The notes: generated by a model not told the origin, from the sequence alone. A stretch of 52,184 bases of DNA from an uncultured Myxococcales bacterium (GCA_903936705.1 CAIZWN010000067.1:1-52184); one strand, 5' to 3'. Shown: positions 2,330 through 16,919, counted from the first letter of the stretch. Translations and numbers: made by a program.

Positions 2330-3427
2330 ATGGACTTGTCTGAACATGGAACTGTGGACGTTGACGAACTTCCGATCGAGGCACGGCTGGAGTCATGGCG
2401 GTTCGATCTGCCTGAAGTCCTTATTGCGCAGGTGCCGGCTTCTGATCGTGACGGTTCGCGACTGATGGTGCTGCCGCGGGTCGATGGAAGCCCGATTCAC
2501 GCCGGTTTCAAGGACCTGCCTTCCTGGCTGCGTTCCGGTGATGTCCTGGTAGTCAACGATACCCGGGTGCTGCCTGCGCGATTGTTTGCCCGCAAGGACA
2601 CCGGGGGCCGCGTCGAATTGCTGGTGCTGGACCGGCGGCACGACAGATTTTCGGCGATGTTTGGCACGCACCGTGGCCTGCGGCAGGGCGCGCGACTCGA
2701 GGTGCTGGACCTGGATGGCCAACCAACCGGGATATGCGTGCTGGTCCAGGGGCTGCGGCCGGGAGGCATTGCGGACCTTTCCTGCGTTGACGCTGCGATG
2801 ATTGACGAACTACTGGCGCGACATGGCCGCATGCCGTTGCCTCCATACATTCGTCGGGAGGGGCGCGACCATTCCGATCTGGATCGTGAACGATATCAAA
2901 CCGTGTATGCGTGTCGGGAAGGGGCCGTTGCTGCGCCGACAGCAGGGCTTCATTTCACGCCTGATCTGCTTGCCACTCTTGAGGCTGGAGGCATACGGAT
3001 ACTGCGGGTGACGTTGCACGTAGGACCCGGAACATTCAAGCCGATATCCACCCCGGACGTGCGGGATCACGATGTCGGCGAGGAGCGATATGACGTTTCA
3101 TCGGACACTGCGCTGGCTGTGAACCAGGCTTTGGCTGATGGGCGTCGCGTGATTGCTGTTGGCACGACGGCGGTGCGTACGCTGGAAGCCGCCGGCGCCA
3201 CCGGGCGCGTGGTGGCGGGCGAAGGGGCGACGCGCCTGCTGATCACGCCTGGGTACCGCTTCAAGGTTGTCACGGGTATGGTGACGAACTTTCACCTGCC
3301 CGGTTCATCCCTGGTGGTCCTGGTCGGCGCGTTGGCGGGGCGGGAACGCGTGTTGTCAGCCTATCGCGAGGCCATAGGGGCTGGGTACCGGTTCTATTCG
3401 TACGGCGATGCGATGCTGGTGCTGTAG
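2330..3427 (+). CDS. queA: S-adenosylmethionine:tRNA ribosyltransferase-isomerase
   Basis: QueA transfers and isomerises the ribosyl of SAM onto preQ1 at tRNA position 34, giving epoxyqueuosine. Seen here: FDLPEVLIAQVPASDRDGSRL near the N terminus, VVNDTRVLPARLFARK near residue 68, PLPPYIRREG in the middle, YQTVYA with EGAVAAPTAGLHFT, VGPGTFKPI, and the C-terminal TNFHLPGSSL with RFYSYGDAML. At 365 residues the length is normal. The first ~20 residues exceed the usual N terminus, so a GTG at 2354 is an alternative start, but a G-rich Shine-Dalgarno about 14 bases upstream favours 2330. tgt follows after 21 bases, forming a queuosine operon. Confidence 0.96.
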   Translation: MDLSEHGTVDVDELPIEARLESWRFDLPEVLIAQVPASDRDGSRLMVLPRVDGSPIHAGFKDLPSWLRSGDVLVVNDTRVLPARLFARKDTGGRVELLVLDRRHDRFSAMFGTHRGLRQGARLEVLDLDGQPTGICVLVQGLRPGGIADLSCVDAAMIDELLARHGRMPLPPYIRREGRDHSDLDRERYQTVYACREGAVAAPTAGLHFTPDLLATLEAGGIRILRVTLHVGPGTFKPISTPDVRDHDVGEERYDVSSDTALAVNQALADGRRVIAVGTTAVRTLEAAGATGRVVAGEGATRLLITPGYRFKVVTGMVTNFHLPGSSLVVLVGALAGRERVLSAYREAIGAGYRFYSYGDAMLVL

Positions 3428-3448
3428 ATCGAGATTGGGGGTGGGACG

Positions 3449-4597
3449 ATGTCTGTGGGGTTCAGCTTCGAGGTTTCGCACCACGACGTGCGGACTGCTG
3501 CCCGCAGGGGTGTACTGACGACGCCGCATGGTGCGATCGAGACCCCGGCCTTCATGCCGGTAGGCACTCAGGGGACCGTCAAGGGCCTTCTGCCGGGGCA
3601 GGTGCGTGATGCCGGTTTCGGGCTGATCCTCGGAAACACATACCACCTGGCGTTGCGCCCAGGGGCCGAGATTGTTGCAAGACACGGCGGTCTGCATCGT
3701 TTCATGGACTGGGACGGCGCCATCCTGACCGATTCCGGCGGCTTCCAGGTTTACAGCCTGGCCGCGCTGCGCAAGGTTGCCGAGGCCGGGGCTACGTTTC
3801 GCAGCCACCTTGATGGTTCACTGCACGAGTTCACCCCGGAGGGCGTGATCGAAATCCAGGAGGCGCTGGGCTCGGACATTGCCATGGTGCTGGACGTCTG
3901 CCCGCCGTCCACGTCGACGCGTTCCCAGTTGGAGGACGCCCTTTCCCTGACCACGCGCTGGGCGGAACGTACCGTTGCGGCCCGGAAGAAGGCGGACCAG
4001 GTGGTGTTCGGGATCGTGCAGGGCGGGCTGGACATGGAGCTGCGCCGACAGCACGCCGCGGCGATTTCAGCGCTGCCGTTCGAGGGCATCGCCATCGGGG
4101 GCCTGTCTGTCGGGGAGCCGCCCGCCGCCATGTACCCGATTGCGGCTGCCACGGCCGCGGTTCTGCCGGTCGATCGTCCCCGCTATCTGATGGGCGTGGG
4201 GATGCCTCCGGACCTGCCAAGGTGCGTGATGGGGGGAATCGACTTGTTCGATTGCGTATTCCCGACGCGGGCGGGGCGCAACGGGCTGCTGCTGACCAGG
4301 AAGGGCCGCGTGGTCATCAAGAACGCCCAGTATCGCGAGGACCTTACACCGCCCGACCCCGATTGCGACTGCCCGGTTTGTACGCGTTATACCAAGGCGT
4401 ACCTGAGGCACCTGTTCGTAGCGAAGGAGATCCTTGCATCGGTGCTGAACACCATGCACAACCTGCATTTCTACTCGAGGCTTATGCGTGAGGTGCGGCA
4501 GGCTGTCCTTGATGGCACACTTCCGGAACTGGCCGGCGAACTGGACCTTGCCTACCCGGTTGGCGAGGACAGTGGCGAGGCAAGTGCGCGCGAGTGA
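3449..4597 (+). CDS. tgt: tRNA-guanine transglycosylase
   Basis: Tgt swaps guanine 34 of GUN-anticodon tRNAs for preQ1, the step before QueA. The 382-residue protein has DSGGFQ with the general-base Asp at residue 95, GIVQGG, GGLSVGE, and GIDLFDCVFPTR with the nucleophile Asp. A zinc site CDCPVC is followed by YLRHLF, which gives the C-x-C-x2-C...His ligands. The substrate-recognition segment reads LDVCPP, where bacterial enzymes usually show LDEC. The length is normal and the start has a GGGGTGGGA Shine-Dalgarno. It is co-transcribed with queA. Confidence 0.96.
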   Translation: MSVGFSFEVSHHDVRTAARRGVLTTPHGAIETPAFMPVGTQGTVKGLLPGQVRDAGFGLILGNTYHLALRPGAEIVARHGGLHRFMDWDGAILTDSGGFQVYSLAALRKVAEAGATFRSHLDGSLHEFTPEGVIEIQEALGSDIAMVLDVCPPSTSTRSQLEDALSLTTRWAERTVAARKKADQVVFGIVQGGLDMELRRQHAAAISALPFEGIAIGGLSVGEPPAAMYPIAAATAAVLPVDRPRYLMGVGMPPDLPRCVMGGIDLFDCVFPTRAGRNGLLLTRKGRVVIKNAQYREDLTPPDPDCDCPVCTRYTKAYLRHLFVAKEILASVLNTMHNLHFYSRLMREVRQAVLDGTLPELAGELDLAYPVGEDSGEASARE

Positions 4598-4701: not shown

Positions 4702-7197
4702 ATGATGACGACGCGACGGACCTGTTGGCTGGCCGTATCGGCTTGCTGGATCGTGGGTTGCGGCTCGGGGGGCGGCGACAACCCGTCCGACCGTGGCATG
4801 CCTGATACCCTTCAAGTCGACACCCCGGTTGGCCCCGAGGACGTCGGCGCTGAGGAAGTCGGGACGAAGGACGAGGGATCCATTGATTTGGGCCAAGGTC
4901 TGGACGTGTTTGACGTAAGGACCGTCGATACCGGCGAGGTCGAGGACCCCTGCTCGTGGGGAGCCACCGGCTGTCCTTGCAAGGCTAATGAGGACTGCAT
5001 TTCCAACCTGTGCGTCGATACCATGGACGGGTTTCGTTGCTCCATCGGATGTCAGACTTCGGCAGTGTGTCCAAAAGGCTGGTATTGCGGAATGCTGGGC
5101 GGCGGTGGATCGGACGTCGTGTCAGGGTGCATCGACCCGTTCTCCAGCCTTTGCCAGCCGTGCGTCAAGGACCAGGAATGCGTTCCGGCCATCGCCTCGA
5201 CCGACTACAAGTATGTCTGTGTCGATTTCGGGGTGAACGGGTCCTTTTGCGGCGTTTCTTGCAAAGCGGATGACAATTGCCCCGACGGCTTCGAGTGTGC
5301 CGAGGCGTTGACCGAGGGCGGTTCGGTCAAGCAGTGCAGGCCCGCCGCGGGCGCGGATTGCCCGTGCACCTTGAAGTACCAGCAGCAGGCTAACGTCACC
5401 GTCTGCCGCGTCCAGAACCCCGAGGGGGTGTGCCGAGCCGAGAGGACGTGCGATCAGGATTGCAGCGCCAAGGTGCCCGAGGCCGAGACCTGCAACAATG
5501 TCGACGACGACTGCGACGGCGATACGGACGAGAATATCCCCGATGAGGAATGCACCCTTACCACCGGGGAATGGAAGTGCCCTGCGAAGAACATCTGTAC
5601 TGACGGAACGATGGTCTGTACCGGCGTCGAGCCTGTCGAAGAGGCCTGCAACGGGAAGGACGATGATTGCAACGGCGAGACCGACGAGGAAGGTGCCCTG
5701 AACTGCACGCAATGGGTGCGGGATGAAGACAAGGACGGCTATGGAGTCGACGGCGACGAGAAGTGCCTGTGCGATCCGCTGGCTCCGTACACGGCGACTA
5801 TCGGTGGCGACTGTGACGACACCAACAAGCAGGTGTTCACCGGCGCTGCCGAGGTGTGCAACGGCAAGGACGATGATTGCGACGGCGAGACGGACGAGGA
5901 GGGTGCCCAGAAATGCATCCAGTTCTACGTCGATCAGGATGGGGACATGTTTGGCCTCACCACGGACACGAAGTGCCTGTGCGCCTCTGAAGGACTTTAC
6001 TCGGCGCGTGTCGGCGAGGACTGCAACGACCAGCTTTTTGCCGTGAACCCAGGTGCGACCGAGACCTGCAACGTCAAGGACGATGATTGCGACGGCGAGA
6101 CGGACGAGGAGGGGGCCCTGGGGGCGTTCCCTTGTACTCGCTACTATCTGGATTCGGACCGTGACAAGTACGGCAAAAGCGATGTTTCGAAGTGTTTGTG
6201 CGCGGCTGTGGCTCCCTACGATGCCGGGGAGAACCCGTCTGGTTTGCCTGCCGGTTTCGACTGCAATGACGACAACAAGGCGGTAAACCCGAATGCAGTC
6301 GAGAGGTGCAATGGCCTTGACGACGACTGCAACGGTGTGACTGACGATCCTGGGATAGCACTGGGTGGCAAGCAGTATTTCAAGGATCTGGACGGCGACG
6401 GGAGGGGCAGCGGCAAGGATTACCAGGTTCGTTGCGCGCCGGGGGAAGGATACACGTCCTTGACCAACACGGACTGTGACGACAACGACCCGAATGTCTA
6501 TCCGGGAGCCACCGAATTCTGCAACGGCCATGACGACAACTGCGACAACGCGGTGGACGAGGACGGAGCCAGCGGATGTACCCCGTACTACTACGACAAG
6601 GATGGGGACGGGTACGGCCTGACGCTTCTGGTCCAGTGTCGCTGCAACGGACCAAACGGGTTCTATCGTGCCGTCAAGGACGGGGATTGCAACGACAACA
6701 GTTCGATGATTCACCCCGGAGTGGCCGAAGTGTGCACTGACGTGTCCTCGGGTGGTATCCGCGTCGACGAGGATTGCGACGGGCAGACGGACGAGGAAGG
6801 CGCGACAAACTGTATCAATTACTTCGTCGACATGGACGGAGATGGCCACTCGCCGGACCCGAACAATTTCAAGTGCCTGTGCACGCCCAAGGCGCCGTAC
6901 ACGGGTACCGATGCAACAGGTGACTGCTGCGACCAGGATGCGAACGTTCATCGTGGCCAGGCGAACTGGTTCACCTCTGCCAACGTCTGCGGCAATTTCG
7001 ACTACGACTGCAACGGGAGACCGGACAAGGAGTATTCGAACATGGTTTCGTGCAGTTGGAGCTTTGGGTGCAGCGCGAATGCCGGATGGACCGATTCGGT
7101 CCCCGATTGTGGCGGATCGGGTTGCTGGTCGAACAATTGCTCGGGTTTCCCGTGTTCGGGCGATTGCGACCTGACTAGAACCCAACGCTGCAAGTAG
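4702..7197 (+). CDS. Secreted MopE-like Cys/Asp repeat lipoprotein
   Basis: The 831-residue protein begins with a lipoprotein signal (lipobox IVGC near residue 20), then an acidic Asp/Val/Glu tether to about residue 80. A Cys-rich segment resembling dickkopf/EGF-like modules covers residues 85-230. After that come eight units of the type CNGKDDDCDGETDEEG alternating with D-x-D-x-DGYG...KCLC...GDCDD. This is the pattern of the MopE/putative metal-binding repeat (PF11617-like), whose Asp ladders resemble calcium-binding loops. Three central units are spaced exactly 210 bp apart. GGAGG at 4692-4696 sets the ATG at 4702. Likely role: surface protein binding Ca2+ or another metal; no catalytic domain is visible. 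Confidence 0.85.
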   Translation: MMTTRRTCWLAVSACWIVGCGSGGGDNPSDRGMPDTLQVDTPVGPEDVGAEEVGTKDEGSIDLGQGLDVFDVRTVDTGEVEDPCSWGATGCPCKANEDCISNLCVDTMDGFRCSIGCQTSAVCPKGWYCGMLGGGGSDVVSGCIDPFSSLCQPCVKDQECVPAIASTDYKYVCVDFGVNGSFCGVSCKADDNCPDGFECAEALTEGGSVKQCRPAAGADCPCTLKYQQQANVTVCRVQNPEGVCRAERTCDQDCSAKVPEAETCNNVDDDCDGDTDENIPDEECTLTTGEWKCPAKNICTDGTMVCTGVEPVEEACNGKDDDCNGETDEEGALNCTQWVRDEDKDGYGVDGDEKCLCDPLAPYTATIGGDCDDTNKQVFTGAAEVCNGKDDDCDGETDEEGAQKCIQFYVDQDGDMFGLTTDTKCLCASEGLYSARVGEDCNDQLFAVNPGATETCNVKDDDCDGETDEEGALGAFPCTRYYLDSDRDKYGKSDVSKCLCAAVAPYDAGENPSGLPAGFDCNDDNKAVNPNAVERCNGLDDDCNGVTDDPGIALGGKQYFKDLDGDGRGSGKDYQVRCAPGEGYTSLTNTDCDDNDPNVYPGATEFCNGHDDNCDNAVDEDGASGCTPYYYDKDGDGYGLTLLVQCRCNGPNGFYRAVKDGDCNDNSSMIHPGVAEVCTDVSSGGIRVDEDCDGQTDEEGATNCINYFVDMDGDGHSPDPNNFKCLCTPKAPYTGTDATGDCCDQDANVHRGQANWFTSANVCGNFDYDCNGRPDKEYSNMVSCSWSFGCSANAGWTDSVPDCGGSGCWSNNCSGFPCSGDCDLTRTQRCK
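5647..6120 (+). repeat. 210-bp tandem coding repeats inside the MopE-like gene
   Basis: The segment encoding GKDDDCNGETDEEG recurs with near-identical DNA starting at about 5647, 5857 and 6067, an exact period of 210 bp (70 residues). The shared core is AAGGACGATGATTGC followed by ACGGCGAGAC and GACGAGGA. Further units downstream (about 6301 onward) are more diverged. Such identity can drive unequal recombination and change the number of units. Confidence 0.8.
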
Positions 7198-7231
7198 TCC
7201 GTGCGCCGGCCTTTATTAGCCATGCCAACTA

Positions 7232-10200
7232 TTAGGACGACTCTTCCACGATGCTCAGGACTGCCTTCCCGTGGCGCTCGACGAACTTCCCGCCGATGCC
7301 CGGCAGGCCGTACAACTCGACGGCAGTGCGGGGTCTGGCTGCGATGATGGCTCGCAGCGCCTTGTCGGTCAGGATCCGGAACGCCGGGACGCTCTCCTGG
7401 CGAGCGGTCGACAGACGCCATTTTTTCAGCCGGTCCAGCAGTGACGTGTCGGCTTCATCCAGGATTGGCGCTGCCGTCGGCTTGACCGCGGCTTCGACCT
7501 TCGGACGTCGGGTCGTAGTTGCGGCCTTGCGCCCTGTTCGCACACGGTCCGCGGGTCCTTCCGGGCGCACCTCGATCGGAACTTCGATGTCCTGAATGCT
7601 GTCCAGCCGTCCAGCCGTTTTTGCAAGGTGAGCCCGTCTGAACGTGACGGTCTTGCCCTCGCGCTCCATCGCGTCCTCGGACAGCGTCAGAATGCGGGCC
7701 TGCTGCATTGCGCTGATCAGTCGCTCAAAGTCCGAGCGTTCGATTCGACCATCAGGGAACAGGTTTCTGTGCAGTGTTCCCGTCGCCAGGCCATCGCGGT
7801 GGCGCAGTTCGCCGAGAACCCCGTTCATAGCCGCTCGTTCGTCGTCGGTTGCTGCGCGAAAGCGTCTGACGGAACAATCGGCGGGTGCGCACGTGTCGCA
7901 CTTGCCGCAGGCGCCTCCGGACTTGTCGCCGAAATGCCGAACCAGCATCGCCATGCGGCAGGCGCCCGAACGCGCCAGATCCAGGACCTGGTCGATTTGC
8001 GCCTCGCGGTGGCCCCGGATTGATTCGTAGGATCCTTCCCAACCGGTCGCGCCCCGCTGCACCGCGTCGTCCGCGTCCACGGTGACGCCACCGTGAATCC
8101 ACAATTTGGCGATGGCGTTCTCGGCCACTTCGGGCTCGAGCCCGCATGTACGCACCAGAAGTTCGCGGGACATGCCGCCGTTCGGCACCATGTCGCGAAC
8201 CGATTTCAGCGTTGCGGTGGGCGGGTAGTCACGTTCGAAAAACCCCTCATGGACCCGTCGGTCTCCCCATCCGTACAAGAGAATGGCACGGGCGCCCTGG
8301 CCGTCACGCCCGGCGCGCCCAATCTCCTGGTAGTAGGCTTCCATGGATCCTGGCAGGGCCAGGTGGAACACCGTTCGCACGTCCGGCTTGTCGACCCCCA
8401 TGCCGAAGGCGATGGTGGCAACGATTACGTCCAGATCCCCCCCCAGGAAGCTGTCCTGGACGCGCGACCTCGTAGCCGGGTCCAGTCCCGCATGATAGGC
8501 GGCGGATTTGTACCGCTCGGACAGGCGTGTCGCCGCATCCTGGGCTGCCTTGCGGGTAGGTGCGTAAACGATTGCCGGGCGCCGGGCCGGGTCAGCCAGG
8601 ACGCGCTCTACCTCGTCCATGCGGCGGGAAGGCAGTCGCTCGGCCATTTCCAGCGACAGATCATCGCGGCGGAAACCCCTGGCAAATCTTAGCGCAGTGG
8701 GGACGTTCAACTGCGCGCAGATGTCGTCCTGGACCCTCAAGGTGGCAGTGGCGGTCAGGGCAATGACGGGTGTTGGCATCAGCAGTGGCAGCCGGTCCTT
8801 CAGCAGCCGGTAGTCGGGCCTGAAGTCATGCCCCCAGTGGCTGATGCAATGGGCTTCGTCAACGGCCACCAGGGTCGGGCGCCGTTTTGCAAGCATTTCG
8901 GGGAAACCCTGGACCGACAGGCGTTCGGGGGCGATGAACAGGAAATCCAGGCGGCCGTTAAGGTAATCGAAGCAGGCGGTACGGCTGTCTTCTCGCGTGC
9001 GGCCCGAATGGATGCGTTCAGCGCGAATACCTCGCGACTTCAGTTTGCCGACCTGGTCTTCCATCAGGGCGATCAGCGGGCTGACGACCAGCGTGGTGCC
9101 GCCGCGGGCCAGCCCGGGCAACTGGTAGCACAGCGACTTTCCGCGACCGGTGGGCATGACTACCAGGGCGTCTTTGCCAGCGGTGACGGCATCGCAGACC
9201 TCCTCCTGGCCCTCGCGGAAGGAATCGAAACCGAAACGTTCGTGCAGCATCCGGGTCAGACTAGGCTTGGCTGGCGTGAAAGGCATTGTCGCTGCGGCCG
9301 TGGCCGCCCGGCTGCTGCCATCGGTCGCTTTCGGGATTGATGACGCCTGGCCCGCGGTTGTTTCCCTGGGCCCTGACGACGACGACACCCCCGACGTCGT
9401 TCCTGCCTCGCTCTGTGCCGTGCCGCTGCGATACGCCGTACCGCCATCACGCCCCAGTGACTTCACTGCACCAACGACCTCGCTGACATAGCGCTCGATG
9501 CCTTCCATGAAGGCTTCCAGCGTGCCCTCGCCCTTCTCCATGCGCTTCAGGCGCAACTCCCATTCGCCCGTCATCGCCGGGCTCTTCACCTTTTCGTGCA
9601 CGACCTCGATCAGCCAGATCCCGTCATCGGTCGCCCGCATGGACTTTCCCTTGCGCTCGACATAGCCCCGCGAGATCAGCGTTTCGATGGTTGCGGCCCT
9701 CGTGGCCGGCGTGCCCAGGCCGCGCTCGCTCATGGCCTCTTCAAGTTCCCGGTCGTCAAGTGTCTTGCCGGCTGTCTCCATGGCCGTCAGCAGGCTGGCA
9801 TCAGTGAAGCGCTTGGGTGGGGTGGTTTCCTTGCGCAGGGCCTCGACGTTGGTCACCGGCCGGACCTGCCCCTCGGCCAGCCCGTCCGGCAGGCGACTGG
9901 AGCCTGCCTCGTCCCCCTTATCATCGGCGTCGGCGCCTGCGTCGGTCGGTGTTACTGCCTTTGGCTTTTTGGGCTTCTTCTTGCCGTCGGTCTTCTCGGT
10001 CCGGGCGCCTCCAACGTCCAGGACCTTCCAGCCGACCTGCGTCACGACGGTGCCTGATGCCCTGAAATGGTCGGTTGCGCCTTCGGTGACCACGCGCGTC
10101 ACGACGGTAGTAACCCGGGTTTTGTAGTCCTTGTGCCATGCCATCAGCAGGCGACGGCAGATCAGGTCGTAGACCCTTTCCTCGTCAATCGACATGGACT

Positions 10201-11389
10201 TGCCGTGCGGGTCAACCGAGGTCGGAAGAATCGCGTGGTGGTCGGTTACCTTGGAATCATCTACAAATCGCGCCGTCAGCGGCCGTGTGCCTGTGCCTGC
10301 GGCAACGGCGTCGCCGTAGTACTTCGCGACAACGTCGGTCACCGATTTCACGCGGGCGGCGACGTCCTTCGACAGGTGGCGCGAGTCGGTACGCGGGTAA
10401 GTGATCAGCTTGTGCTTCTCGTACAGCGCCTGGGCCGCCGCCAGCGTGTCGATAGCTGGCAGCCCGTACAGCCGGTTGGCGTGGCGCTGCAGTTCGGTCA
10501 GGTCGTACAGCAGGGGAGGTGCCTGGTTCCGGTCGGCTCCAGAGAGCGAGACGACCTCGCCGGAACCACCTAGGACGCGCAACCTGATGGCGGTCGCTTC
10601 GGCCGGGTCTGCCGGCAGTCGCGACGCATTCCGGGCCTCGCCCTCGGAGGTTGCCCGTGCCGGGTCGAACCAGGTTGCCTGGTACCCGTCGGTTCCTTCG
10701 CCGAAGGTCGCGACAACCTCGTGGTATACATCTGGAACGAAGTCGCGTATCGCCTTTTCGCGCTCGACCAGCATGGCCAGTGTCGGGGTCTGGACGCGCC
10801 CGACCGACAGCAGTTTCCTGCTGCCACCAGGTTCGGTCTGCTGGCCAAACCTGAGGCTGTAGGCTCGCGACAGGTTCATGCCCACCAGCCAATCGGCCCT
10901 TCCTCGGGCCTCGGCCGCCCGCCCAAGCGCGTCGTAGTCCGATCCCGGCCGCAGTCCGGCGAATCCCTCGCGTATGGCCTCGGGTGTCAGTGAACTGATC
11001 CACAGTCGTTGCACAGGCCTGTTGCACCCAGCCATCCTGGCTATGTATCTGAAGATCAGTTCGCCCTCGCGTCCTGCGTCGGTGGCGCACACGACATGAT
11101 CGACATCCGGGGCGGACAAGTGGCGGGCAACGGTATCAAAATGGTCCTTCGTGGCGGCCAGGGCGTGCAGCAGGAATTCCTTCGGCAGCATCGGAAGGCG
11201 GTCGAACCTCCAGGGCTTCCAGTCGGGGTTCATCGCTGCAGGCTCGGCTATGCCCACCAGGTGGCCGATGGCCCAGGTGACCACGTAGCCGTTCCCGGAC
11301 AAACCTGCATCAACCCTCCTGGTGGCCCCAAGGATAGCTGCGATGTCCCGTGCTACCGATGGCTTTTCGGCGACGACTACGATTGACAC
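7232..11389 (-). CDS. DNA topoisomerase III - RecQ helicase fusion
   Basis: One 1385-residue chain holds two enzymes. Residues ~1-635 are type IA topoisomerase (TopB-like): AEKPSVARDIA and ATDAGREGELIF of the Toprim domain, active-site Tyr331 in LITYPRTDSRHLS, and GLGTPATRAATIE in the C-terminal part. A Lys/Pro-rich insert lies at ~468-500. Residues ~650-705 are a Ser/Thr/Ala linker. Residues ~706-1385 are RecQ: Walker A MPTGRGKSLCYQ (Lys751), VDEAHCISHWGHDFRP, TATAT, QEIGRAGRDG, a zinc site C-x16-C-x2-C-x2-C at 1144-1167, winged helix, and a C-terminal HRDC domain. I chose the GTG at 11389 (GGGAGG five bases upstream) over a longer frame from 11437 because Toprim starts there. Expected role: decatenation and resolution of recombination intermediates. 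Confidence 0.95.
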   Translation of the reverse strand: MSIVVVAEKPSVARDIAAILGATRRVDAGLSGNGYVVTWAIGHLVGIAEPAAMNPDWKPWRFDRLPMLPKEFLLHALAATKDHFDTVARHLSAPDVDHVVCATDAGREGELIFRYIARMAGCNRPVQRLWISSLTPEAIREGFAGLRPGSDYDALGRAAEARGRADWLVGMNLSRAYSLRFGQQTEPGGSRKLLSVGRVQTPTLAMLVEREKAIRDFVPDVYHEVVATFGEGTDGYQATWFDPARATSEGEARNASRLPADPAEATAIRLRVLGGSGEVVSLSGADRNQAPPLLYDLTELQRHANRLYGLPAIDTLAAAQALYEKHKLITYPRTDSRHLSKDVAARVKSVTDVVAKYYGDAVAAGTGTRPLTARFVDDSKVTDHHAILPTSVDPHGKSMSIDEERVYDLICRRLLMAWHKDYKTRVTTVVTRVVTEGATDHFRASGTVVTQVGWKVLDVGGARTEKTDGKKKPKKPKAVTPTDAGADADDKGDEAGSSRLPDGLAEGQVRPVTNVEALRKETTPPKRFTDASLLTAMETAGKTLDDRELEEAMSERGLGTPATRAATIETLISRGYVERKGKSMRATDDGIWLIEVVHEKVKSPAMTGEWELRLKRMEKGEGTLEAFMEGIERYVSEVVGAVKSLGRDGGTAYRSGTAQSEAGTTSGVSSSSGPRETTAGQASSIPKATDGSSRAATAAATMPFTPAKPSLTRMLHERFGFDSFREGQEEVCDAVTAGKDALVVMPTGRGKSLCYQLPGLARGGTTLVVSPLIALMEDQVGKLKSRGIRAERIHSGRTREDSRTACFDYLNGRLDFLFIAPERLSVQGFPEMLAKRRPTLVAVDEAHCISHWGHDFRPDYRLLKDRLPLLMPTPVIALTATATLRVQDDICAQLNVPTALRFARGFRRDDLSLEMAERLPSRRMDEVERVLADPARRPAIVYAPTRKAAQDAATRLSERYKSAAYHAGLDPATRSRVQDSFLGGDLDVIVATIAFGMGVDKPDVRTVFHLALPGSMEAYYQEIGRAGRDGQGARAILLYGWGDRRVHEGFFERDYPPTATLKSVRDMVPNGGMSRELLVRTCGLEPEVAENAIAKLWIHGGVTVDADDAVQRGATGWEGSYESIRGHREAQIDQVLDLARSGACRMAMLVRHFGDKSGGACGKCDTCAPADCSVRRFRAATDDERAAMNGVLGELRHRDGLATGTLHRNLFPDGRIERSDFERLISAMQQARILTLSEDAMEREGKTVTFRRAHLAKTAGRLDSIQDIEVPIEVRPEGPADRVRTGRKAATTTRRPKVEAAVKPTAAPILDEADTSLLDRLKKWRLSTARQESVPAFRILTDKALRAIIAARPRTAVELYGLPGIGGKFVERHGKAVLSIVEESS

Positions 11390-11419
11390 GATGGCCTCCC
11401 GCGGCGCGAGTTTAGTCGT

Positions 11420-11428
11420 TGGTAGAAT
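11420..11428 (+). promoter_or_regulatory. Candidate extended -10 promoter for the flavoprotein gene
   Basis: TGGTAGAAT has the TG-n-TANAAT form of an extended -10 element. It lies in the 105-bp gap between the divergent topoisomerase-RecQ gene and the flavoprotein gene, about 67 bases before the ATG at 11495. No good -35 is visible. The same nonamer occurs upstream of secA. Confidence 0.35.
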
Positions 11429-11494
11429 CGTCCGCAACGCCCGAGCGTTTCATACGGCTTGCGGAGGAACTCCGATTCTGTTAGTCGGTGCGGC

Positions 11495-12721
11495 ATGCTT
11501 GATGTGATCGTCATCGGTGGCGGGGCGGCTGGACTGACGGCGGCGATCCGGTCTGCGTCGCTTGGCGCGCACACGCTTTTGCTGGAGCGCGGGCCTCGTG
11601 CAGGGCGCAAGCTGCTGTTGACCGGTGGGGGCCGTTGCAACCTTGCTCTTGACCGCGACGCGGCAGCGTTTGTCCGGGATTGCGGCCCGCAGGCTCGGTT
11701 TCTGCACAACGCGATCGGGCGGTTCGATTGTGCTGCGACCAGGGCATGGTTCGGCGAACTGGGCCTTGCAACCATCAGGGAGCCTGACGGGCGTTGTTTT
11801 CCAGCTTCGGGGCGAGCGCTGGACGTCTTGCGCGTGCTGGAATCCGGACTGGCCCGGACCCGAGTCCAGGTCGCGTACGAGGTTCGTGTCACGCGGATCA
11901 GCCGGGTCGGGGCTTCTTTTCAGGTGCAGGCCGGGACTACCAGTCACGAGGCGCGTTCGGTCATTCTGGCGACCGGAGGGCTTTCATATCCGGATACAGG
12001 CTCCAGCGGCGACGGCTATGGCATCGCGGCGGCGCTTTCGCACCGGGTGGTTGGGCAGGTGCCAGGCGAGGTGCCACTTGTCGCAGGCCCTGCCTGGATC
12101 CGTGAACTTTCTGGCCTGGGACTCGAGGACGTTGTCGCCCGTTTCGTCCAGGGGAAGCGGTCAGTCGAGGTGCGAGGGGCGCTGCTGTTCACGCACTTCG
12201 GGGTATCCGGGCCGGCGGTGCTTGACGGCAGCCGTCTTGTTGCCCGCTGGTTCGGCGGGGGGCCGGTTGCGCTGATGCTGGATCTTGTGCCTGACATCTC
12301 CCTGGAGGAACTGGACAGGGACCTGGAATTGTCTGCCGCGTCAGGCGAGCGTCGGTCTGTCCGAACCATGCTGCGACACCATCTTCCGGAGCGCCTTGCG
12401 AACGGGATTGTTGCAAACGTGTTGTCGGGAGGCGATGCAAGAGTCGCCGGCTTGCCGGCCCGTTCACGCCGGGAGCTTGCGATGTCGCTGAAGGGGCTGG
12501 CTCTGACAGTCACCGGAACCAGGGGATTCGCCGAGGCGGTCGTGACGATCGGGGGCGTTGATACATCCCAGGTTCATCCGGTCACGCTTGAATCGCGTCT
12601 GGTGCCGGGCCTGCACTTTGCCGGGGAACTTCTGGATGTGGATGGCCCGCGTGGCGGTTACAACCTGCAGATCGCATGGAGCACCGGCTTCGCTGCCGGT
12701 ACGCATGCGGCGGGGAAGTGA
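11495..12721 (+). CDS. HI0933/YhiN-type FAD-dependent oxidoreductase
   Basis: The 408-residue protein starts with a Rossmann FAD-binding motif, DVIVIGGGAAGLTAA. It continues with LLLERGPRAGRKLLLTGGGRCNL, which is diagnostic of the HI0933 family (PF03486). ATGGLSYPDTGSSGDGY lies mid-protein, LLFTHFGVSGPAVLD follows, and FAGELLDVDGPRGGYNLQIAWSTG ends the domain. Members are cytosolic flavoproteins whose physiological substrate is not established. An in-frame TTG at 11459 would add 12 residues, but the Rossmann strand starts immediately after the ATG at 11495. Its length is normal, and it is divergent from the topoisomerase-RecQ gene. Confidence 0.88.
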   Translation: MLDVIVIGGGAAGLTAAIRSASLGAHTLLLERGPRAGRKLLLTGGGRCNLALDRDAAAFVRDCGPQARFLHNAIGRFDCAATRAWFGELGLATIREPDGRCFPASGRALDVLRVLESGLARTRVQVAYEVRVTRISRVGASFQVQAGTTSHEARSVILATGGLSYPDTGSSGDGYGIAAALSHRVVGQVPGEVPLVAGPAWIRELSGLGLEDVVARFVQGKRSVEVRGALLFTHFGVSGPAVLDGSRLVARWFGGGPVALMLDLVPDISLEELDRDLELSAASGERRSVRTMLRHHLPERLANGIVANVLSGGDARVAGLPARSRRELAMSLKGLALTVTGTRGFAEAVVTIGGVDTSQVHPVTLESRLVPGLHFAGELLDVDGPRGGYNLQIAWSTGFAAGTHAAGK

Positions 12722-13421: not shown

Positions 13422-13448
13422 CAGGTTACAGGTTGCGCAGGTTACAGG
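13422..13448. repeat. Two 11-bp direct repeats upstream of the pilin-like gene
   Basis: CAGGTTACAGG occurs at 13422-13432 and again at 13438-13448 (period 16 bases). The second copy overlaps the stop codon region of the upstream protease ORF. Their position just upstream of the candidate pilin -35 suggests a transcription-factor site; this is inference. Confidence 0.6.
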
Positions 13449-15271
13449 CATTTCCAGGCGTTTCGAGGAAAGGTCTTCGATGCCGGAGGCGGCTGGCTGG
13501 CCAGGACGTGGATCGTGCGGCGGTTGCGGGCCTCGTCGGTCTCGTCGGCAGTCTGGATGGACAGTGCGTCCTCGCCGAAACCTTGCCAGCAGGCCCGTAC
13601 CTTCATGCCGTGTGCCTGGAACCATGAGGCGATTGCCAGGGCGCGCCTGGACGACAAATCCTGGTTGTAGTCCCGGCTGCCGACCGTGTCGGTATATCCG
13701 GCGACGTACAACTTCGCCTTCAGTTCATTGCCAAACTTCAGCAGCGCGGCGTGGATGCCATCCAGCGTGCGTGCCAGTTTCGGCTCCTCGGCGGCCATGA
13801 TGTCGGACTTGGCAGAATCGAAATTGACCTCTTCGTGCGGGACTTCCACGAAGAAGGGGGCCATCTCGACACCGTTGAAAAAGCCGTCGGGGTCGGTGGC
13901 AGTCAGACGCAGCAGGGTGATCGCCCCGCGATTGGTCGGGAAGCGCACAGTAATCGGGGTTCCCGCTGCGGCCTGCCGATCCTCGGTAGCATCGGTCAGG
14001 ACGCGCCCTTCCTCGCCCAGTACCGTCATGGTCACCTTCGCCACAGGCTCGGAAGCCGTGAAAGTGATGCGGCCATCGGCCAGGTCAACGGTGTCCTTCG
14101 TCACGTCAATCTTCATCGGGCGCGCCACTACAACCGGGATCTCGTAGGCCTCGGGTTCCTTCATCGACTTCGACGAAACCTCCAGCGTGATTGTCATTCG
14201 CCCGGGATCGTCGGGCAGTGGAATGATCTTCGATTGCCCCATCTTCATCAGGCCCACGGCGACTGTTTTAGCGCGTCCGTCTGGAAGGCGCAGCGTGACC
14301 GTGACGCCCTGCAGTGGACGCAGCGCCTTGATTGTAGCGGTCGGCTTGTCGCTTCCCATAAGGACGCGGCTGTTGGTGGCCAGGTCGATGGCCGCCTCCT
14401 GGGCCCCGGCCGGAATCGAAATCAGCAGCAGTGCCACCAGCATCAGCGGGGCAGCACGACGCCGCCGGGCCGCAATTGCCAGCCCAGCCAGGCCCAGCAG
14501 CGCGGGTAAAAGCGCTGCGCTCGACGTCCTGCCACCAGCCTGGCAGCCACCACCACCGTTCTCGCCCAGGCCCTCGTCAGGGTTCACCTCGGCGTACTTC
14601 TGGCTGTAGAGGGTGCAAAGACCATTGGTGTCGTCGGTCGCAAGGATGCGCTTTGAAGTTTCGCCTGGGGGCGCAGTAGAGAACATCGTGGAATCGCGCA
14701 CGTCGCTGTGGTCCAGTGCCATCACGTGTCCCAGTTCGTGGGTCAGCGTATTTGCGAGGTCAATTCCATGGCCCCCGGCCTGGTCCAGGATGTCGAACGT
14801 GTATGCGGATTCGCTCATTTTCAGTTTCATTTCAAGGGCGTACGACCTGATTTGACCGGTCCCCGGGTCGTAGAACAGCGTCGTAAGGGCCAGGACGTTA
14901 CCGCCACCGTTGCCGTATTCAGGCGGCTTGTCGGAATTCCAGGCGTCGATATCCTGGAACACGATGACGTTGCCCCCGACCTCGTTGCCATTGACCTTGC
15001 GTATCGGGACTATGCCGGCCACCACGCCCAGTTCGTCCAAGGGAGGCTGGCTGCAGGGCACAGCGTTCCATGTCGCGATCGAACTGCGAATTGCTGCCAG
15101 CGTGTCTTCTTCTGGAAGATTCGAGCACAAAGCCTTGTCGATGTTCGCTGGAATCCCTTCCAGGTACCACCTCAGGGGAAGGCCGCTCTTGGTCTCGTAG
15201 AACTTGTAGCCTGTGTGCGAGAAACCCACGACCGCCACCAGCAGCAGAGCGAGGCGTTGCGATGTGATCAT
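13442..15271 (-). CDS. Matrixin-like metalloprotease fused to an OmpA-like protein
   Basis: The 609-residue ORF looks like two proteins end to end. Residues 1-20 are a signal peptide. Residues ~30-225 are a matrixin-type zincin with HELGHVMALDH (zinc His178, His182, His188; Glu179) and a Met-turn DSTMF at 193-197. Cys243 starts GCQAGG, a hydrophobic stretch (252-268) and RRRR, the architecture of a MYXO-CTERM C-terminal sorting tail. The frame then runs straight into LMLVALLLISIPAGAQ (275-290), a typical N-terminal signal peptide. After it come beta-sandwich-like repeats and, at ~490-590, an OmpA peptidoglycan-binding domain (VAGYTDTVGSRDYN, LSSRRALA). Its start overlaps the upstream gene by ATGA. 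Either a natural gene fusion or a lost stop/assembly error would explain this. Confidence 0.85.
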   Translation of the reverse strand: MITSQRLALLLVAVVGFSHTGYKFYETKSGLPLRWYLEGIPANIDKALCSNLPEEDTLAAIRSSIATWNAVPCSQPPLDELGVVAGIVPIRKVNGNEVGGNVIVFQDIDAWNSDKPPEYGNGGGNVLALTTLFYDPGTGQIRSYALEMKLKMSESAYTFDILDQAGGHGIDLANTLTHELGHVMALDHSDVRDSTMFSTAPPGETSKRILATDDTNGLCTLYSQKYAEVNPDEGLGENGGGGCQAGGRTSSAALLPALLGLAGLAIAARRRRAAPLMLVALLLISIPAGAQEAAIDLATNSRVLMGSDKPTATIKALRPLQGVTVTLRLPDGRAKTVAVGLMKMGQSKIIPLPDDPGRMTITLEVSSKSMKEPEAYEIPVVVARPMKIDVTKDTVDLADGRITFTASEPVAKVTMTVLGEEGRVLTDATEDRQAAAGTPITVRFPTNRGAITLLRLTATDPDGFFNGVEMAPFFVEVPHEEVNFDSAKSDIMAAEEPKLARTLDGIHAALLKFGNELKAKLYVAGYTDTVGSRDYNQDLSSRRALAIASWFQAHGMKVRACWQGFGEDALSIQTADETDEARNRRTIHVLASQPPPASKTFPRNAWKCL

Positions 15272-15959: not shown

Positions 15960-16919
15960 CTACGCAACGTCGAACGGGAACGCAATGACGTCCCGGATCG
16001 TCGATGCGCCCAGCAGCAGCATCGCCACGCGGTCGAAACCCAGCGCCACACCGGCGCAAGGTGGCAAACCGTCGCGCAGCATCGAAACGTAGCGGTCGTC
16101 GATGGGGTAGGCGGGCAGACCCAGGCGCTGGCGCTCGCGCAGGTCGGTCTCGCACCTGGCAAGGTACTCGTCAGCATCCGGAAGTTCGGTAAACCCGTTT
16201 GCCAGTTCCAACCCGCCGGAATACAGCTCAAAGCGCTCGGCCACCCTGGGGTCGCCGGGCTTGACGCGCGCCAGTGACGCCTGGTCTACAGGGTACTCGA
16301 TCAGAAATTCCGGGGTGTTTGCGCCAATCGTCGACTCGACGCGCTCGACAAGGGCCAGGTCGCGTTCCTCGGGCGTCATGGCAAACGGATCTTCCGCCCC
16401 GGCGCGGGCAAAGGCATGTTCAAACGCAATGCGAGGGTAGGGTGGCACAAGAACCGAAGGGCCGCGCAGGCCTTCCACTGCCGGCGCGTCCTCGACGCCT
16501 ACTGCGTCGCCCATTGCCCACAGAAGTTCCTCGGCGTCGTTCATGATCGCGTCGTAGGTCTCGCCAGCCCGATACCATTCGACCATCGTGAACTCGGGAT
16601 TGTGGCGGTCTCCGAACTCGGCGGCCCTGAATGCCCGCGTGACCTGGAAGATCCGGTGAAAACCCGCAGCGACCAGGCGCTTCATGTGGAACTCGGGGCT
16701 GGTCGTCAGGTAGCGCGGCTGGTGCAGGCCGGCCCCGCGCAGCTCGAAAGCCGCAAGATGAGTTTCCACCCCGGGTGAAGCACAGGCAATTGGGGTCTCG
16801 ACCTCCAGGAATCCCTTGTCCCTGAAGAAGGCGCGTAGGGCGTCCAGCAGGCGAGCTCGCAGCGGCAGGTTACGACGCAACATGCCGTCATGCCCAGCGA
16901 AACGGACAATGTCACTCAT
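15960..16919 (-). CDS. epmA: EF-P lysine ligase (EpmA/PoxA/GenX)
   Basis: The 319-residue protein is a class II lysyl-tRNA synthetase catalytic core without the anticodon-binding domain, which is the hallmark of EpmA. It shows FLEVETPI, TTSPEFHMKRLV, motif 2 as FQVTRAFRAAEFGDRHNPEFTMVEWY, GGLELANGFTEL, and motif 3 as GVALGFDRVAMLLLGA. EpmA attaches (R)-beta-lysine to a conserved Lys of elongation factor P, which helps ribosomes through polyproline stretches. It lies 40 bases downstream of efp on the same strand, so the enzyme and its substrate are probably co-expressed. Confidence 0.94.
   Translation of the reverse strand: MSDIVRFAGHDGMLRRNLPLRARLLDALRAFFRDKGFLEVETPIACASPGVETHLAAFELRGAGLHQPRYLTTSPEFHMKRLVAAGFHRIFQVTRAFRAAEFGDRHNPEFTMVEWYRAGETYDAIMNDAEELLWAMGDAVGVEDAPAVEGLRGPSVLVPPYPRIAFEHAFARAGAEDPFAMTPEERDLALVERVESTIGANTPEFLIEYPVDQASLARVKPGDPRVAERFELYSGGLELANGFTELPDADEYLARCETDLRERQRLGLPAYPIDDRYVSMLRDGLPPCAGVALGFDRVAMLLLGASTIRDVIAFPFDVA

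Follow-up and report, generated by a model that had tools for sequence, protein, structure and literature searches.

The pairing of a RecQ helicase with topoisomerase III (Topo III) is known from two-protein systems. In the RecQ-topoisomerase III-Rmi1 (RTR) dissolvasome, Sgs1-Top3-Rmi1 or BLM-TOP3A-RMI1, a disordered segment couples an HRDC-bearing RecQ with a topoisomerase III of type IA; the contact is non-covalent, the disordered Sgs1 N-terminus meeting Top3-Rmi1 (PMC3905885). Covalent Top3-Sgs1 fusions have been engineered in yeast (Bennett & Wang 2001, as cited in PMC3905885). E. coli has topB (b1763) and recQ (b3822) as unlinked genes, and its RecQ can modulate Topo III in vitro (PMC13244152). 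In Listeria monocytogenes recQ lies directly before topB in the same direction, with 23 bases between the two genes (L188:2480-6429), and they give two proteins. Reverse gyrase also has an SF2 helicase-like part and a type IA topoisomerase in one chain, helicase first, and its two parts form one compact enzyme. Here we describe a gene that joins a complete topoisomerase III to a complete RecQ in a single chain, found in a 52,184-nucleotide stretch of an uncultured Myxococcales bacterium (GCA_903936705.1, CAIZWN010000067.1:1-52184), referred to below as the window.

Each part of this protein is of a known kind. Both halves are homologous over nearly their full length to E. coli RecQ and TopB, the nearest solved relatives by sequence, and carry the same catalytic motifs; the differences are the single chain and an insert of ~65 residues, winged-helix-like, in the RecQ half. 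The link that is non-covalent in the RTR dissolvasome is covalent here, and the fusion is natural, where the yeast one was man-made. Compared with reverse gyrase, the topoisomerase comes first and is of the topo III type, the helicase is a true RecQ, which has both the zinc site and HRDC, and the tether is long and disordered. Compared with the Listeria pair, the order is opposite and there is one chain. We found no natural TopB-RecQ fusion in the open-access literature, and the architecture may stand in domain databases (e.g. InterPro) without a paper. We put the probability that the product is a RecQ-topoisomerase III strand-passage enzyme in one chain at roughly 0.7.

The minus strand from 11389 to 7232 is a single open frame with no internal stop, and the plus strand over the same interval has many. 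The original prediction had placed one 1385-residue protein here without naming the strand; the placement was right, and the missing strand is the minus. A longer reading from a TTG at 11437 is possible. The start is best placed at the GTG, judging from the sequence, because a GGGAGG precedes it and homologues begin at the same residue (M/V-x-VVVAEKPS). In two relatives (G001, G002) the frame reaches ~500-600 residues further upstream; we rejected this extension as a domain, since the conserved start comes only after this stretch, which resembles the antisense of the divergently oriented flavoprotein gene. The features of the gene are as follows.

7232..11389, minus strand: topoisomerase III-RecQ fusion, complete coding sequence of 1385 residues (from the GTG at 11389 to the stop codon at 7234-7232; Pfam and NCBIfam matches, 27 intact fused frames)
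11395..11400, minus strand: GGGAGG, ribosome-binding-site-like sequence just 5' of the GTG start
9455..11389, minus strand: topoisomerase III half, residues 1-645
11060..11080, minus strand: Toprim acidic motif DAGREGE, residues 104-110
10397..10399, minus strand: predicted catalytic Tyr331 (LITYPRTDSRHL), aligned with E. coli TopB LITYPRSDCRYL
9263..9454, minus strand: predicted disordered linker, residues 646-709, rich in P/A/S/T/G in the family, conservation almost nil
8228..9262, minus strand: RecQ helicase core, two RecA-like lobes, residues 710-1054
9134..9157, minus strand: Walker A MPTGRGKS, residues 745-752
8849..8860, minus strand: DEAH box, residues 844-847, with the RecQ aromatic-rich loop next to it
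8048..8224, minus strand: predicted extra winged-helix-like insert, residues ~1056-1114, after the helicase core and before the zinc site (AlphaFold2 helices and strands; motif spacing)
7883..8041, minus strand: RecQ zinc-binding domain, residues 1117-1169, with four invariant Cys (Pfam and alignment)
7625..7846, minus strand: predicted second winged helix at the RQC-like position, residues ~1182-1255 (AlphaFold2 secondary structure; the Foldseek alignment follows the BLM core)
7247..7447, minus strand: HRDC domain, residues 1315-1381 (PF00570, E 3.8e-17)

The order of Pfam domains, all above curated cut-offs, is Toprim (4-133), Topoisom_bac (152-628), DEAD (726-888), Helicase_C (931-1030), RecQ_Zn_bind (1125-1167) and HRDC (1315-1381). 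The topoisomerase half matches the NCBIfam DNA topoisomerase 3 models PRK07726/NF005829 (635 bits, cut-off 597) and TIGR01056 (519 bits, cut-off 516). The RecQ half matches the RecQ family model TIGR00614 (371 bits, cut-off 220) and falls short of the stricter equivalog TIGR01389 (473 bits against 640). Reverse gyrase was rejected as the family, both for the topoisomerase-first order and for a TIGR01054 score of 100 bits against a cut-off of 472.

Motif invariance was taken from an alignment of 23 fused proteins. Invariant in all of them are, in the topoisomerase half, Glu8, DAGREGE, SVGRVQTP (residues 195-202) and Tyr331, and in the RecQ half the Walker A lysine, DEAH, the GRAGRDG arginines and the zinc cysteines 1144/1161/1164/1167. 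The RecQ half's SF2 motifs and aromatic-rich loop as a set are invariant or close to it. Gly106 occupies the second-acid position of DxD and is nearly invariant in a set of unfused TopB as well. The AlphaFold2 model of the topoisomerase half aligns with E. coli Topo III (1d6m) over 578 residues at 3.4 Å (Z 40.1); the loop at the position of the E. coli decatenation loop is similar in size, and its sequence is not shared. RecQ structure cores align with the model over ~390 residues at Z ~33-40 (best RecQ 39.7, E. coli RecQ core 32.7), and the RecQ-half model has a predicted local distance difference test score (pLDDT) of 88.7. Two complete enzymes in one chain, topoisomerase first and thus opposite to reverse gyrase, with Toprim DAGREGE, an active Tyr331 and a low-complexity linker between them, are what the original prediction had described, and all of these were recovered.

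It had also listed Walker A, DEAH, zinc site and HRDC in the RecQ half, correctly, and had overlooked the winged-helix insert. From GRAGRDG to the first zinc cysteine the spacing is 119-124 residues in fused proteins (120 here), against 55 in E. coli RecQ, and the model suggests that the insert is a winged-helix-like unit without a counterpart in the latter. The insert belongs to the RecQ subfamily and did not come with fusion, since unfused RecQs of that subfamily show this spacing too; in several other RecQs the spacing is 123-147.

Between the conserved parts the linker measures 21-119 residues across the 23 fused proteins, and its sequence is unconserved. In the AlphaFold2 two-part model, which covers residues 1-1170 of the 1385, linker residues 648-707 have a pLDDT of ~28 and the predicted template modelling score (pTM) is 0.53, with no fixed arrangement of the two halves. 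Both values fit a tether, and the modelled protein would consist of two confidently predicted halves on a flexible leash, unlike a compact reverse-gyrase-like body.

Such a linker is a likely protease target, and that of the window contains a GTG with a weak AGGA upstream, so that two ordinary proteins might be present in cells through linker cleavage or a second start. We consider this highly improbable. An in-frame start with a ribosome-site-like sequence upstream occurs in just 3 of the 23 linkers and at unrelated positions, and no promoter-like site was found on either strand in 7000-11600 with a sigma-70 consensus, which is a poor test in this lineage. The fusion gene is convergent with a gene for a MopE-type protein (4702-7197, plus strand) and the gene on its other side, for an HI0933-like flavoprotein (11459-12721, plus strand), is divergent; the fusion gene therefore appears to be transcribed alone.

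The window's genome is a fragmented draft of 84 contigs, where a chimeric assembly or an annotation artefact could join two genes. This is already refuted by the independent assemblies: intact fused frames number 27, in separate Myxococcota and Acidobacteriota genomes (one more is split at contig ends), and their topoisomerase halves are monophyletic. Moreover the 1239 linker codons from 23 genomes contain no in-frame stop, against 17 and 9 stops in the other two forward frames. What had been named as breaking the single chain is a stop or a frameshift within the linker, or a separate ribosome site; neither interruption appears in these sequences, and no internal start with a ribosome site is conserved.

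The census used samples of 113 genomes of the phylum, Myxococcota, and 119 of Acidobacteriota. The fusion is real, modest in frequency and present in two phyla. Myxococcota families with it are f1, f3, f8, f18, f21, f30 and f39. Family f1 has the fused frame in 9 of 13 genomes, some cut by contig ends; three genomes have neither half, and the remaining one (G004), in which each of the two halves runs into a contig edge, is probably fused too. In the class (52 genomes) f3 and f8 contribute one fused frame each, and f18, f21, f30 and f39 contribute ten in the phylum sample. Acidobacteriota supply two named records (L042, L043) and 4 of the 119 sampled genomes. The closest named records are metagenome-assembled genomes labelled 'uncultured Myxococcales' (L044, L045). 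Besides its fused gene, one genome (G007; L140, C459) has a second TopB N-terminus of 71% identity at a contig end, either a second copy or a binning mix. Searches of viral contigs found no relatives, and on plasmids no single place covered 80% of the protein.

A clade with support 100 holds all 28 topoisomerase halves of fused chains, and no unfused member of it occurs in the samples; the fusion therefore probably arose once. On the RecQ side, the fused halves fall within a single distinct subfamily, where unfused proteins are nested among them. A single clade of fused RecQ halves was rejected by the approximately unbiased test (p 7e-9), which supports this nesting. Most simply, the two were fused once, long ago, and the topoisomerase half was then lost several times, a history read from a RecQ backbone that is weak; exchange of RecQ halves is a possible alternative history. 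No TopB remnants were found by tblastn next to unfused RecQ genes. One unfused RecQ of the subfamily, in an Acidobacteriota genome (G252, L197), lies in a 1075-residue frame with several hundred residues upstream of RecQ that have no TopB similarity. In the tree of fused chains Acidobacteriota and Myxococcota are intermixed, which may reflect horizontal transfer or poor resolution. In three genome pairs (the window against same-genus genomes) nonsynonymous divergence (dN) is 0.12-0.14 and synonymous divergence (dS) 1.0-1.2 in both halves, so both are under purifying selection; the linker changes freely.

We infer enzymatic activity, coupling, substrate and cellular role, and known biochemistry makes it reasonable to see the chain as a coupled RecQ-Topo III unit. 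The reaction would be the one that RecQ and Topo III of E. coli perform in vitro and that the BLM/Sgs1 dissolvasome performs, leading to double-Holliday-junction dissolution or to decatenation. The RecQ half would load on branched DNA, such as a double Holliday junction, D-loop, converging forks or hemicatenane, and would unwind it 3'-5', exposing single-stranded DNA. The tethered type IA half would cut the exposed strand via Tyr331, pass the other strand through the gap and reseal, and joined molecules would be unlinked without crossovers. The flexible linker would hold the topoisomerase beside the strand exposed by the helicase and would substitute for the contact of Sgs1/BLM with Top3-Rmi1. 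The window's genome has no RecQ_Zn_bind match and no topo III outside the fusion gene; TopA (C51) and RuvC are encoded separately.

Several points weigh against this coupled enzyme. According to a 2026 paper (PMC13244152), no physical contact between RecQ and Topo III has been observed in E. coli, and a joint role was not borne out by later genetics; even a fused pair is therefore not bound to be coupled. Further RecQ or TopB copies occur in several fused genomes (G019, G106, G123, G139). The RecQ half is also found alone in relatives, with no TopB nearby, and so serves a purpose without the topoisomerase too.

Fusion might serve co-expression only, setting a 1:1 dosage of enzymes that act largely independently, the topoisomerase on any single strand and RecQ in fork or gap repair. 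A long, unconserved, disordered linker, the lack of a fixed arrangement in the model and the persistence of RecQ alone would all suit such an arrangement. We regard it as unlikely, because the chain stays fused across Myxococcota and Acidobacteriota, the topoisomerase clade is never unfused in the samples, and family f1 keeps or loses both halves together.

A variant that overlaps with the coupled strand-passage enzyme makes it chiefly an enzyme of replication termination and decatenation instead of a recombination dissolvase. The HRDC domain, which in BLM is tied to dissolution of double Holliday junctions, is retained here and argues against the variant, although nothing here separates the two roles. 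On the other side, RuvC in the genome provides junction cleavage, and RecQ and Topo III resolve converging forks in vitro, to go by the title of a paper that PMC13244152 cites (Suski and Marians 2008). We hold the variant to be possible and lean against it.

A bolder version of the coupled enzyme, an ancient, natural and obligately coupled one-chain dissolvase in two bacterial phyla, is put forward tentatively, at somewhat less than even odds. The partnership would be fixed covalently without an RMI1-like mediator (RMI1 was not searched for), and the RecQ with its extra winged helix would be suited to pass single strands on to the tethered topoisomerase.

The pairing of RecQ and Topo III in bacterial cells is disputed: stimulation is known in vitro, contact in E. 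coli has not been seen, and genetic results disagree (PMC13244152). That a natural fusion of the two is conserved gives independent evidence that they are functionally linked, and provides a single protein for direct tests of coupling, cis-action and linker dependence. It is also a second, independently built chain of helicase and type IA topoisomerase to set beside reverse gyrase.

Other genes of the window were noted in passing. The convergent neighbour at 4702-7197 encodes a cysteine-rich protein of 831 residues with five or more metal-binding motifs of the MopE type, and is overlapped by a 687-residue antisense open frame of a sort common in high-GC DNA. Adjoining queuosine genes (2330-4597, plus strand) encode a QueA-type protein and a tRNA-guanine transglycosylase. 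On the minus strand, 13445-15271 encodes a 609-residue protein that pairs, unusually, a matrixin-type domain (Peptidase_M10) with an OmpA domain at the C-terminus; a hydrophobic stretch and a run of arginines separate the two. Also on the minus strand, 15963-16919 encodes a short class II tRNA-synthetase-like protein of 319 residues, which we would guess to be an EpmA/GenX-type paralogue of lysyl-tRNA synthetase.

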